The position numbers and the translations under genes are program-made. Positions 6,337 to 10,405 of a stretch of DNA of 64,000 nucleotides are shown here, piece after piece. Source of the stretch: Pedobacter roseus. GTDB lineage: Bacteria; Bacteroidota; Bacteroidia; Sphingobacteriales; Sphingobacteriaceae. The notes beneath the pieces were generated by a model that ran no database searches, had not been told where the DNA came from, and saw nothing but the letters and a program-made list of their open reading frames with translations. The number at the start of each line of letters is the position of its first letter. Position 1 is the stretch's first letter. The stretch is from the NCBI RefSeq assembly GCF_014395225.1, contig NZ_CP060723.1, forward strand, positions 5,828,001 through 5,892,000. The letters run 5' to 3'.

Positions 6337-7134
6337 CTATTTTATGCTCTTTTTGGTAACAATGAAATAGCCTATGATGAAAAGAATGGCCGCATAAATT
6401 AAACTTGTCCATATTTCCTGGGTAAAAATCGGAAAATCCAGAGGATCAGTTCCTTTTTTTACTTTAGCAATCCTTAAAGCGAGTGTAGGTAAAGAATAAG
6501 GGATTAGATAAGCATATTTCCAGCCTACATTTGCTGTGATGATGCCCATGATGGTGCCCACAAAACCTATTCCCATTGGTTTAAGGAAATCGGCCCACAA
6601 TAAACTCAGGATAAACTGTAACGATAATATGCCTAATGAAGACAGGAATAGTTTAACATAAGCATTGATGAGTAAATTTAATGGATTATAGTGGTCGAAA
6701 TTATATTTTGGAACTAAAACCTGTAATAAATGACCGAAGGCAAAGGTTAAAGAGGCAAAAAGGAATAAACAGGTAAAGATTAAAAATACGGCATAAAGGT
6801 ATTTAGCAGCATAAATGGAAAATTTATTCAAAGGCTGCGCAAAAAGCATTTTCCAGGTATCGTTTTTATGTTCAATATTATTGACCGAAAAAGCCATAAA
6901 TATCACATAAAAAGGCATAATTAATAAGCCCATTACTCCAAGTGCCGCACCGCTATACTGTGCCCATAATACCATGGGAGGGTAATGGAAGGCAAGGATT
7001 TTTTCAGAACCGGAATAAAAACCAAAAGTGATTAAACCGCATATAATAACAGGCAATAATATCGCTGCCCAAAAAGCCAGTGTTTTCCGAGATTTATAAA
7101 ATTCTGATATTAAAGATATGTAGAGCGTGCGCAT
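6337..7134 (-). CDS. ABC-2 type exporter permease
   Basis: A 265-residue membrane protein with six predicted helices, in the ABC-2 (BcrB/lantibiotic-permease-like) style: an N-terminal helix after RKTLAFWAAILLP, a cytosolic loop with EHKNDTWKMLFAQPLNKFSIYAAK, and four C-terminal helices ending in FIIGYFIVTKKS. It starts 1 base after the ATPase gene. With the ATPase it should form an exporter, perhaps for a peptide or envelope-active compound; the substrate cannot be read. Confidence 0.9.
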   Translation of the reverse strand: MRTLYISLISEFYKSRKTLAFWAAILLPVIICGLITFGFYSGSEKILAFHYPPMVLWAQYSGAALGVMGLLIMPFYVIFMAFSVNNIEHKNDTWKMLFAQPLNKFSIYAAKYLYAVFLIFTCLFLFASLTFAFGHLLQVLVPKYNFDHYNPLNLLINAYVKLFLSSLGILSLQFILSLLWADFLKPMGIGFVGTIMGIITANVGWKYAYLIPYSLPTLALRIAKVKKGTDPLDFPIFTQEIWTSLIYAAILFIIGYFIVTKKSIK

Positions 7135-7135
7135 A

Positions 7136-8044
7136 TTAGTTGGTTTTTGTAATGTCCAGAAAAAGATTTTCTAAATCCTTTTTCTGTTGGTAAAGGCTGC
7201 TTACCGTAAATCCATTTTGAATAAGTAGTGTATTTAATTCGCCGCTTTTTTGTGCTGAAGTAAATGGAACGATGATTTTTTTATCGGTTTGGGTTATAAT
7301 TTCATAACCTGTTTTTGCTATAAACGCGCTCGCATTTTCGATGTTGTTCACTTCAATTTCGAGCATAGGTTTGCTCAGCAGGTGCAGTTCGTCGATGGTA
7401 CCCTGAAATAAGAGCTGTCCTTTATTGATAATGCCAACATGTGTAGCTGTTCTTTCAATTTCGGCCAGTAAATGGCTCGAAACCAATATCGTTTTTTGGT
7501 GTTTGGTTGCTAATTCGATCATGAGGTTACGTACCTCGATAATACCGTTGGGGTCTAAACCATTGGTAGGTTCATCCAAAAGCAAGAGTTCGGGATCTGA
7601 GATGAGCGCCTGGGCAATACCGAGACGTTGTTTCATTCCTAGAGAATATTTACTTGCTTTTTTATTTGCTGCCTCTGTAAGGCCTACTAAAGCCAACATT
7701 TCGTCGGCTTTGGTTTTTTTTATGCCGAGCAGGATGCAACGGTTGATCAGGTTTTCTTTGCCTGTTAAATGACCATAGATGGCCGGTTGTTCTACCAACG
7801 CACCCACCCGCTTAAGGATGGCTATACGGTTGCTGTTTATTTCTTTGCCAAATATAAAAACCTGATCAGCGGGAGACTTCAGCAGGTTGAGCAAAATTTT
7901 TATAGTAGTTGTTTTTCCGGCTCCGTTTGGTCCCAAAAAGCCATAAATACTGCCTTTTGGTACTTGTAATGAAAGGTCTTTTACAATGGTTTGATTACCA
8001 AAGTTAAAGTTTAAGCCTACAGTTTCGATAGCGTAATTACTCAT
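7136..8044 (-). CDS. ABC exporter ATP-binding protein (BcrA-like)
   Basis: A 302-residue ATPase with Walker A GPNGAGKTT (38-46), Q-loop region EQPAIYGHLT, signature SLGMKQR (134-140), Walker B LLLLDEPT (153-160) and H-loop H191. The C-terminal 80 residues are the DUF4162-like extension found in drug and lantibiotic exporters. It lies between a small single-helix protein (5 bases upstream) and the permease (1 base downstream), in an operon divergent from a LytS/LytTR pair that probably controls it. Confidence 0.93.
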   Translation of the reverse strand: MSNYAIETVGLNFNFGNQTIVKDLSLQVPKGSIYGFLGPNGAGKTTTIKILLNLLKSPADQVFIFGKEINSNRIAILKRVGALVEQPAIYGHLTGKENLINRCILLGIKKTKADEMLALVGLTEAANKKASKYSLGMKQRLGIAQALISDPELLLLDEPTNGLDPNGIIEVRNLMIELATKHQKTILVSSHLLAEIERTATHVGIINKGQLLFQGTIDELHLLSKPMLEIEVNNIENASAFIAKTGYEIITQTDKKIIVPFTSAQKSGELNTLLIQNGFTVSSLYQQKKDLENLFLDITKTN

Positions 8045-8049
8045 TACTA

Positions 8050-8307
8050 TTATTTAAAAATAGCTGTAGCCTGTTTTACGATCGTTTCTGAAGTTTTAGC
8101 AGGTTTAACTACTATTTCAGCATCATTTTGGTTGGTGCTTACTGTAAGTGTTAAAATGATCATCATAAATACTGGTAATAATAAAAGTAAAAATGGCGAT
8201 GTGTTTCCTAACTTTTTCATGATGGTTTGTTTTATTTGAGCGGCTGCGAAAATAACATCAGCCATTACTGTTTGATTTTTTAAGTTGATTGCTGATGTAG
8301 TTTTCAT
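8050..8307 (-). CDS. Small single-pass membrane protein, first gene of the ABC operon
   Basis: An 85-residue protein with one strong membrane helix (PFLLLLLPVFMMIILTLTV) near its middle and a polar C-terminal tail (NQNDAEIVVKPAKTSETIVKQ). The start is placed at the ATG at 8307 (MKTTSAINLK); a TTG eight codons upstream and an ATG at 8220 (MKKLGNTSP) are alternatives. I recognise no family. Its place 5 bases before the ATPase gene suggests an accessory subunit or a small regulatory protein of the exporter. Confidence 0.65.
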   Translation of the reverse strand: MKTTSAINLKNQTVMADVIFAAAQIKQTIMKKLGNTSPFLLLLLPVFMMIILTLTVSTNQNDAEIVVKPAKTSETIVKQATAIFK

Positions 8308-8405
8308 ATTGTTATCGTTTTGATGATTCAAAGAAACTCAAGAAAAACAACCTGCTAAAATCTATTATACCAAGTGTTCAAGATTCTAGATCAACAGCCG
8401 TTTTT

Positions 8406-8468
8406 GGCGTTGGTCGATAAAAATTGCCCATTGGGCCGTTGGTAGAAAAAAAATGCCCGTTGGTAGAT
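8406..8468. promoter_or_regulatory. Paired direct repeats, candidate LytTR regulator binding sites
   Basis: Four half-sites of the form C(G/A)TTGG lie at 8408, 8429, 8437 and 8458. They make two pairs, each with 21-base spacing, and the two pairs repeat with a 29-base period. LytTR regulators are known to bind two direct repeats about two helical turns apart. The sites lie between the LytS/LytTR genes and the divergent ABC operon, so either or both could be controlled. Confidence 0.7.
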
Positions 8469-8566
8469 TGTGTAAGTAAATCGATAAAACTTTATTTATT
8501 TTGTGGCTTGAACGATAGGCGTTATTAAACGTATATCAGTATTCATTACTATTTAATACATTTCAA

Positions 8567-9598
8567 ATGAAACAAAGTAGGGGCCCTTTAATACTAAATG
8601 CTATTTTTTGGGGATTTATATGCCTTTTTATTATAGTTATATCTATGATGGGGAGTGAAAAGCATACCATGAAAGATTACTTTCTGTCGTATTTTGTTTT
8701 TGGTATCGTTAATGTTTCTGTATTCTACATCAATTATATTTTCCTGATCCCATCACTGATCAAGAAGAGAAAAAAGTACTGGTTATATGTCCTGTCGTTT
8801 GTTCTTTTAATTGTTGTTGCAACATTTGTTAAAACTGTTATCGCTGTTTTAAACCCCGAAGAGATGCTTCGTTATACATTCGATGGCAAAAGCCATAATA
8901 TGTCTGTTAATAATTTTGCTATCAACACGGTTTTTATAATTGGTTTTTTCCTGGTTTCGAGCTGTATTATCAAATTCACTATTGATTGGTTTGCAAGCGA
9001 AAGGATTCAGCGCAATTTAGAGAGCGAACGCCGCGAAATGGAACTTCAGTTTTTAAAGTCGCAGTTAAATCCGCATTTTCTTTTCAACTCGCTTAATAAT
9101 ATCTACTCATTGGCTTATCAAAAATCGGATAAAACTGCTGATGCCATTATGAAGCTTTCGGAAATTATGCGTTATATGATTTATGAAAGCAACACGCCAA
9201 CCGTAGCTTTAAGCAAAGAGGTAGATTATTTAACCAGTTATATTGAACTCCAGAAAATAAGGTTTAAAGATGGTGCTTATATCGAACTTACTTTAAACGG
9301 CGAGATAGACAATCAAAAAATTGTTCCGCTTATGCTGATTTCGTTTGTAGAAAATGCATTTAAACATGGCGTGGTAACCGATCCCACCGAACCGGTAAAG
9401 ATCAATATCATAGCCAACCAGAAAATTTTGCATTTTAGTGTCATCAATAAAAAGAACCAGCAGAATAAAGATGCTCAGGGTGGCGTGGGTTTAACAAATG
9501 TAGAGCGTAGATTACAATTGGTTTATCCCGACAGATATAAATTAAATGTTGTAAATTCGGCTACCCATTATACCTGCGAACTGATGATTGACATATAA
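8567..9598 (+). CDS. LytS/YehU-type sensor histidine kinase
   Basis: A 343-residue kinase of the His_kinase (PF06580) class. Four predicted membrane helices (about 10-30, 40-62, 70-93, 118-140) lead into a short coiled coil and the phosphoacceptor H170 in SQLNPHFLFNSLN. An HATPase domain follows (PLMLISFVENAFKHG; GGVGLTNVERRL). There is no periplasmic sensor domain, as in cell-envelope stress kinases. The partner LytTR regulator starts 57 bases downstream. Confidence 0.93.
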   Translation: MKQSRGPLILNAIFWGFICLFIIVISMMGSEKHTMKDYFLSYFVFGIVNVSVFYINYIFLIPSLIKKRKKYWLYVLSFVLLIVVATFVKTVIAVLNPEEMLRYTFDGKSHNMSVNNFAINTVFIIGFFLVSSCIIKFTIDWFASERIQRNLESERREMELQFLKSQLNPHFLFNSLNNIYSLAYQKSDKTADAIMKLSEIMRYMIYESNTPTVALSKEVDYLTSYIELQKIRFKDGAYIELTLNGEIDNQKIVPLMLISFVENAFKHGVVTDPTEPVKINIIANQKILHFSVINKKNQQNKDAQGGVGLTNVERRLQLVYPDRYKLNVVNSATHYTCELMIDI

Positions 9599-9655: not shown

Positions 9656-10405
9656 ATGAACTTAAACTGTATTGTTGTTGATGATGAGCCTTTAGCGCTT
9701 GATATTTTACAGGATTATATATCGAAAGTACCTTTTTTAACGATGGTTAAAAGGTGCGAAAACCCAATTGAAGCTTTGCAGATTGTACAGGGCGGGGGCA
9801 TTGATCTTGTGTTTTTGGATATCCAGATGCCTGAATTAACAGGAATCCAGTTTTTAAAGATAGCAGGTAATAAATGCCATTATATTTTAACCACTGCTTA
9901 CCCTGAATATGCTTTAGAAAGTTACGACCTCAATGTTTCAGATTATTTATTAAAGCCTATTGCCTTCGATCGTTTTTATAAAGCGGTGGAAAAAGTACAC
10001 AATCAGGTTAAGCCCGTTGAAACACCAGCCAGCGTAGCACAACCCATTATTACACCTGCTCCTTTTTCAGCACCATCCAACCCGGTTCAGGACTATATTT
10101 TTGTAAAAACGGAACATAAGATCCAAAAAATCTATCTCCATGATATCTTGTTTATAGAGGGTTTAAAAGATTATATTTCGATTTTCACCAAAGATGAACG
10201 CGTAATTACGCTGCAGAGTATGAAGAAAATGGAAGAAGCCTTACCTCAAAGCCAGTTTATCAGGGTGCACAAATCGTATATTGTTGCGGTTGATAAAATT
10301 GAAAGTATTGAGCGCAGCCGGATTACGATTAACCAGAAAATTATCCCTGTAGGCGATACTTACCGCGATGAATTTTTCAGGGTGATTGGGAACAAGAATA
10401 TCTAG
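9656..10405 (+). CDS. LytTR family response regulator
   Basis: A 249-residue regulator. The receiver domain (1-120) has D9-D10, phosphoacceptor D55 (LVFLDIQMPE) and a lysine in YLLKPI. A proline-rich linker (about 120-145) joins a C-terminal LytTR DNA-binding domain (YIFVKTEHKIQKI ... QFIRVHKSYIVAVDKI). It is paired with the LytS-type kinase upstream, and candidate LytTR direct repeats lie in front of that kinase, suggesting autoregulation and control of the divergent ABC exporter. Confidence 0.94.
   Translation: MNLNCIVVDDEPLALDILQDYISKVPFLTMVKRCENPIEALQIVQGGGIDLVFLDIQMPELTGIQFLKIAGNKCHYILTTAYPEYALESYDLNVSDYLLKPIAFDRFYKAVEKVHNQVKPVETPASVAQPIITPAPFSAPSNPVQDYIFVKTEHKIQKIYLHDILFIEGLKDYISIFTKDERVITLQSMKKMEEALPQSQFIRVHKSYIVAVDKIESIERSRITINQKIIPVGDTYRDEFFRVIGNKNI

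Follow-up and report, generated by a model that had tools for sequence, protein, structure and literature searches.

Outward-facing direct repeats as predicted LytTR operators between a kinase/regulator operon and a divergent small-peptide operon in Pedobacter roseus

How a histidine kinase gene and a LytTR response regulator gene are controlled, together with the genes that diverge from them, is the question raised by the intergenic region at 8308–8566 of a 64-kb stretch (the window, to which all positions refer) of the Pedobacter roseus genome (6.33 Mb, one contig). This region separates the kinase/regulator genes from divergent genes for a small membrane peptide and an ABC transporter (Table 1), and an earlier note on the window had proposed that two pairs of direct repeats within it bind the LytTR protein and control both operons. 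The regulator carries both the receiver and the LytTR DNA-binding domain of a LytTR response regulator, and its LytTR domain shows weak sequence similarity to the solved LytTR domains of AgrA and ComE. The kinase had been labelled LytS, which is a loose description of a protein whose sole domain match was PF06580 and in which no LytS sensor domain (5TMR-LYT) was found. An orthologue of this kinase was present in all 35 other same-genus genomes searched. At one locus (L070, G005:C2), the spacer between kinase and regulator genes is unusually long, at ~550 bases, and is built of CTTTGGTCTTTCTG-type tandem repeats.

Table 1. Genes, predicted binding sites and promoter boxes of the divergent locus, in window coordinates.
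Feature	Position	Strand	Details
ABC-2 permease	6337–7134	−	PF12730; TIGR03733 MutG 1.4e-10, below cut-off
ABC transporter ATPase, lantibiotic-protection-like	7136–8044	−	PF00005; TIGR03740 5.5e-68, below cut-off
Small membrane peptide, 85 aa from MKT	8050–8307	−	~56-aa common core begins at 8220 (MKKLGNTSPFLLLLLPVF)
−7-like box TTTCTTTG, divergent promoter	8329–8336	−	Distance to site B fixed
Site B (predicted)	8364–8397	−	Half-sites TGTTGATCTA and ACTTGGTATA, 21-bp period; faces small-peptide/exporter operon
Accessory single half-site CGTTGGTCGA	8408–8417	+	15.4 bits as half-site
CATTGG, partner of 8408 in earlier note	8429–8434	+	Degenerate even among close relatives
Site A (predicted)	8436–8468	+	Half-sites CGTTGGTAGA at 8437–8446 and 8458–8467, 21-bp period; faces kinase/regulator operon
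−7-like box TATTTTG, kinase promoter	8497–8503	+	Near match to TAnnTTTG; aligned, conserved
Membrane histidine kinase	8567–9598	+	PF06580 7.2e-28
LytTR response regulator	9656–10405	+	PF00072 8.8e-17 and PF04397 3.1e-19, both over cut-off

The four plus-strand half-sites reported earlier, CGTTGG at 8408, CATTGG at 8429 and CGTTGG at 8437 and 8458, lie exactly where claimed, and the sequence confirms their spacing of 21 bp inside each pair and 29 bp from pair to pair. The pattern CRTTGG-N15-CRTTGG is found at two places in the window, where 0.02 are expected. Genome-wide it gave 23 matches and the reversed control 21, which is no enrichment, and many of the matches fall in a heptamer tandem repeat. 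The (CATTGGT)n arrays at G000:C1:4868990–4869072 and 840839–840872 mimic the crude half-site pattern and inflate simple counts, because 21 is a multiple of 7. Since the crude pair is not enriched across the genome, the informative evidence is conservation.

We aligned, in one orientation, the 330 bases before the kinase gene from 34 same-genus loci and the window (n = 35). The earlier note had named lack of conservation at orthologous loci as fatal to its proposal. The pair 8437/8458, here termed site A, was present in all 35 Pedobacter loci, with invariant spacing and no indel, and its alignment consensus is GTTSGTAGA-N12-GTTSGTMGA. Direct repeats of ~9 bp with a 10–13 bp spacer, about two helical turns from one to the next, are the form of a LytTR-type operator, and the 21-bp-period pair shows this form at every locus; the earlier assignment to LytTR-type repeats with a two-turn period is thereby supported. 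The autoregulation that had been predicted is likewise supported.

A second pair, on the minus strand and absent from the earlier note, was also conserved at 35/35 loci, with the consensus GTTKATCTA-N12-CTTGGTMTA (site B). A weight matrix from the 35 loci gave site A 36.6 bits, site B 29.8 and the pair 8408/8429 5.6, these scores being partly circular because the matrix was built with the window's own sites. In simulated 64-kb sequences, read on both strands, the maximum was 5.2 bits on average and 10.8 at most. The out-of-genus, specificity, DUF2807-regulon and motif-free spacing tests described below are less circular. When a profile of the Pedobacter sites was run against the whole P. roseus genome, the best two matches were site A (E 1.1e-6) and site B (E 1.2e-4).

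The earlier claim of two pairs thus stood for 8437/8458 and failed for 8408/8429, which scored at null level, and we rejected the latter as a full operator on this score and on the degeneracy of its second half. CATTGG at 8429–8434 is probably not a functional half-site. It is accordingly very improbable that tandem plus-strand sites at 8408/8429 and 8437/8458 serve both operons, as literally proposed: the four half-sites are real and the one at 8408 is good and kept in close relatives, but its partner is not, and the divergent operon has a conserved site of its own on the opposite strand. In the 35-locus alignment the 8408 half-site (mostly GTTTGTCGA among relatives) is retained in the 16 closest loci and two more. 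Upstream of the kinase at L072 and L092, an insertion at this half-site makes an extra GTTTRTCGA pair, 21 bp apart, which suggests that the accessory half-site can be extended to a full site.

Both sites hold a fixed position relative to predicted promoters. From the first base of site A to the TTTG end of the −7-like box is 68–70 nt (three matches ran past it to a TTTG further on), and the corresponding distance for site B is 69 nt in all 32 loci caught by the search expression. The −7-like boxes at both divergent promoters are imperfect. LytTR-type operators lie upstream of promoters that serve the regulator's own genes or its targets; here this location is seen as a fixed distance to predicted −7-like boxes and, at the distant sites described below, to ECF-like boxes. 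Judged by these predicted boxes, sites A and B are two outward-facing activator-type positions with near-identical promoter geometry and not two tandem sites. Because they lie at a fixed distance upstream of weak Bacteroidota promoters, we propose that binding would activate transcription in both directions. The same operators could instead serve a regulator that represses both divergent promoters until a signal releases it, much as CoxC, a LytTR protein, acts as a repressor at a promoter whose −35 box is overlapped by three repeats (PMC11347149). We consider this unlikely, since the sites here stand at a fixed distance upstream of the promoter boxes, which is where LytTR activators are placed, and the boxes are weak.

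On the divergent side, the constant partner of site B is the small peptide. A membrane peptide of ~56 aa with the core MKKLxNxSPFLLLLxPVFxMM is encoded divergently at 35/35 loci; inspection of its sequence shows one membrane span, a pN/pS of 0.28 over 27 codons indicates purifying selection, and family searches with it returned no useful match. An in-frame N-terminal extension (MKT..., 8220–8307 of the minus strand in the window) is present in about half of the species, with ~29 aa here and up to ~39 aa elsewhere, and the shared start is the inner MKKL. A related peptide was found in Mucilaginibacter and Olivibacter, and in Mucilaginibacter it is placed before ABC genes. In Pedobacter, the ABC genes are absent at 13 of the 35 loci, where site B is nonetheless kept. 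We rejected the exporter as a constant target on these grounds, BlaI/M56-type genes often being found in its place. The ATPase and permease of P. roseus are nearest to lantibiotic-protection transporters, yet both fall under the curated cut-offs for lantibiotic-immunity ABC families (TIGR03740, 229 bits vs 309.75; TIGR03733, 41 vs 117.2). The exporter-operon control proposed earlier is upheld as control of the divergent operon and better assigned to site B than to the plus-strand repeats; as the ABC genes are not constant, control of the exporter itself may be incidental.

The P. roseus genome encodes 27 LytTR domains, and the motif could belong to another of these regulators, with the kinase locus as one of its targets; GTT-based half-sites of similar type do occur at several of them. 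The genome's other 26 LytTR loci lack the site: there the best 21-bp pair reached at most 4.2 bits and the best pair at 20–23 bp 8.9, and it is accordingly best read as the site of the regulator at 9656–10405. This association extends beyond the genus. We searched 121 genomes of the family with a sequence-only profile (R1) built from the Pedobacter sites; of the best 17 loci fetched from other genera, 15 were the orthologous kinase/LytTR locus, with kinase identity of only ~41–48%. In named Mucilaginibacter genomes a strong minus-strand site is kept and the plus-strand sites are more variable. Absence at the paralogous loci and persistence at the kinase/regulator locus across genera together make ownership by a different regulator improbable. 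In another genus, at L194 (G163:C2:725364), a strong site (33 bits) lies ahead of an ECF-like promoter, and the gene there encodes a secreted coiled-coil-like protein and not DUF2807; regulon content may vary from genus to genus.

Repeat spacing was also analysed independently of the motif: within the 230 bases that precede the kinase gene, the best 11-base self-match was taken for every spacing, and in three independent groupings the peak fell at exactly 21 bp. Among Pedobacter orthologues, spacing 21 gave 9.05 matches against 5.2–7.3 at other spacings, and in the Mucilaginibacter group 8.8 against 5.3–6.3. For 47 more distant LytTR operons the value was 7.87 against 5.9–6.5, with at least 9/11 matches at spacing 21 in 16 of the 47 and in 0–3 at each other spacing. 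Among paralogous LytTR operons of the P. roseus genome, the corresponding numbers were 6/22 and 0–3. These counts are not independent, as the loci include related paralogues. The half-site letters vary from group to group. That the repeats arose by chance and have no function is scarcely credible: the unenriched crude pattern would fit such an origin, but it is already contradicted by conservation at all 35 loci, and the profile matches outside the genus and the sharp peak at 21 bp speak against it as well.

We searched for the motif across the genus in the form GTTSGTMGA-N12-GTTSGTMGA. With at most one mismatch it was found in 79/79 same-genus genomes, and the reversed control gave far fewer matches. 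We inspected 21 sites outside the kinase locus, from 12 Pedobacter genomes picked for variety: 18 lie 122–178 bases upstream of a gene for a short secreted DUF2807-type protein, and three are without an evident gene. These DUF2807 calls are based on PF10988 matches over the cut-off for two representatives and on resemblance for the other downstream genes. In P. roseus, eight DUF2807 genes match PF10988 over the cut-off and five are preceded by the site (15–32 bits), those without it being two long genes and one short; a random sequence of genome size holds 0–1 pairs of at least 15 bits per strand. Among weak profile matches in this genome (E > 0.1), those upstream of a DUF2807 gene were retained and the rest were attributed to chance. 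The DUF2807 genes are unlinked to the kinase locus, and their products, which belong to the Toastrack superfamily (PMC11237479), begin with apparent signal peptides.

At most DUF2807 promoters a further half-site continues the 21-bp register, making three. At every scored DUF2807-type site, a −35-like TGNAACnTTT box starts 48 bases (two half-sites) or 69–70 bases (three half-sites) past the site start, and a −10-like GTCTTA or CGTCT lies ~22 bases beyond this box. By its shape, the box looks like that of an ECF sigma promoter. The proximal half-site has about the same position as at sites A and B. Because the motif is shared, we infer that the regulator at 9656–10405 controls these genes in trans, although a different LytTR regulator of similar specificity might own the sites. 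At L144 (G000:C1:5388634, minus strand) and L145 (G030:C9:77464), a three-half-site array with an ECF-like promoter is followed by no evident gene and then by a terminator-like stem and T run; at L160, a DUF2807 gene occupies the place left empty there. A remnant promoter and a small RNA are the two readings of these arrays.

From these computational observations, the paired repeats very probably let a LytTR protein activate its own genes, the small-peptide/exporter genes and several distant genes for envelope proteins. In the reading that we favour with good confidence, the intergenic region is a bidirectional control region from which the regulator at 9656–10405 would activate both ways through sites A and B, and would also activate the distant DUF2807 genes. 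The kinase would activate the response regulator, which presumably binds sites A and B with two protein copies per site on one DNA face, occupying half-sites two helical turns apart at a fixed position upstream of the −33/−35 element. Binding at site A would raise expression of the kinase/regulator operon, giving positive autoregulation, and binding at site B would raise that of the small membrane peptide and, here, of the ABC exporter. The same activated regulator would act on the DUF2807 genes through the same motif, upstream of their ECF-sigma-like promoters. The signal is probably envelope stress or a membrane-active peptide; envelope stress is suggested because a lantibiotic-protection-like transporter, a membrane peptide and Toastrack proteins occur together. 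Possible, if rather doubtful, is a broader reading in which the locus is an undescribed envelope-stress module of the Sphingobacteriaceae, in which the peptide would act in feedback on the kinase, as an LRS-like inhibitor or as an accessory to the sensor, and one regulator would work from the same fixed position at housekeeping-sigma promoters and at the ECF-sigma promoters of DUF2807 genes.

The predicted operators resemble those of several known systems. Known LytTR sites are 9-bp direct repeats ~12 bp apart that precede the −35 box and in many cases serve autoregulation (PMC6193735; PMC11347149). AgrA at P2/P3 (PMC4227749) and HdrR, with its 9-bp repeats and 12-bp spacer (PMC6193735), act in the way proposed here. 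The HdrRM and BrsRM systems of Streptococcus mutans (LytTR Regulatory Systems, LRS; PMC6193735) share with this locus a LytTR regulator, autoregulatory repeats of this size and spacing, a membrane protein and sometimes linked ABC genes. They differ in that the P. roseus locus encodes a true two-component pair of kinase and receiver-LytTR protein, its membrane peptide is encoded divergently and belongs to another type, and the half-site sequence is not the same. As LRS pair a LytTR regulator that has no receiver with an inhibitory membrane protein encoded in the same operon, the receiver domain and linked kinase place this locus outside that group. The arrangement is also like that of AgrA/AgrC in Staphylococcus aureus (P2/P3; PMC4227749), where a LytTR regulator dimer sits on direct repeats upstream of weak promoters in a divergent intergenic region, its own operon included; such binding is predicted here. 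Unlike that system, the P. roseus locus has a PF06580-type kinase and a divergent product consisting of a small membrane peptide and exporter instead of RNAIII, and phylum, promoter type and half-site all differ.

The triple arrays at most DUF2807 promoters recall the CoxC/RcoM operators, with three direct repeats in an 18–21 bp register (PMC11347149), although CoxC itself, a one-component membrane regulator, is a repressor whose site covers the −35 box. Lia/Vra envelope-stress systems likewise combine two-component regulation with Toastrack-superfamily (DUF2807) proteins and, in some contexts, ABC transporters (PMC11237479); unlike in those systems, no PspA, PspC or LiaI-LiaF-TM gene was seen at the kinase locus and the DUF2807 genes are unlinked. 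LRS-like repeats of 11 bp with an 11-bp spacer have been proposed in Bacteroides thetaiotaomicron and B. ovatus (PMC6193735). Apart from these, we found no direct precedent in the open-access literature for the operator of a Bacteroidota kinase/LytTR two-component pair or for the regulation of DUF2807 genes.

LytTR direct-repeat autoregulation is a known type of switch, and the assignment of the predicted operators to it is well supported. What appears new, by the literature searched, is the candidate target sequence and gene set of such a switch in Bacteroidota, in an unusually complete definition at the level of sequence. Kinase/LytTR pairs are very common in this phylum, and for one of them the predicted operator now has a half-site sequence, a spacing, a promoter geometry, a likely cognate regulator and a list of targets. 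Many other LytTR pairs of Bacteroidota may have operators that are readable from sequence by one simple rule, a 21-bp direct repeat that precedes the kinase gene. The predicted switch would also bring DUF2807 envelope proteins under the same regulator as a membrane peptide that is conserved yet unannotated.
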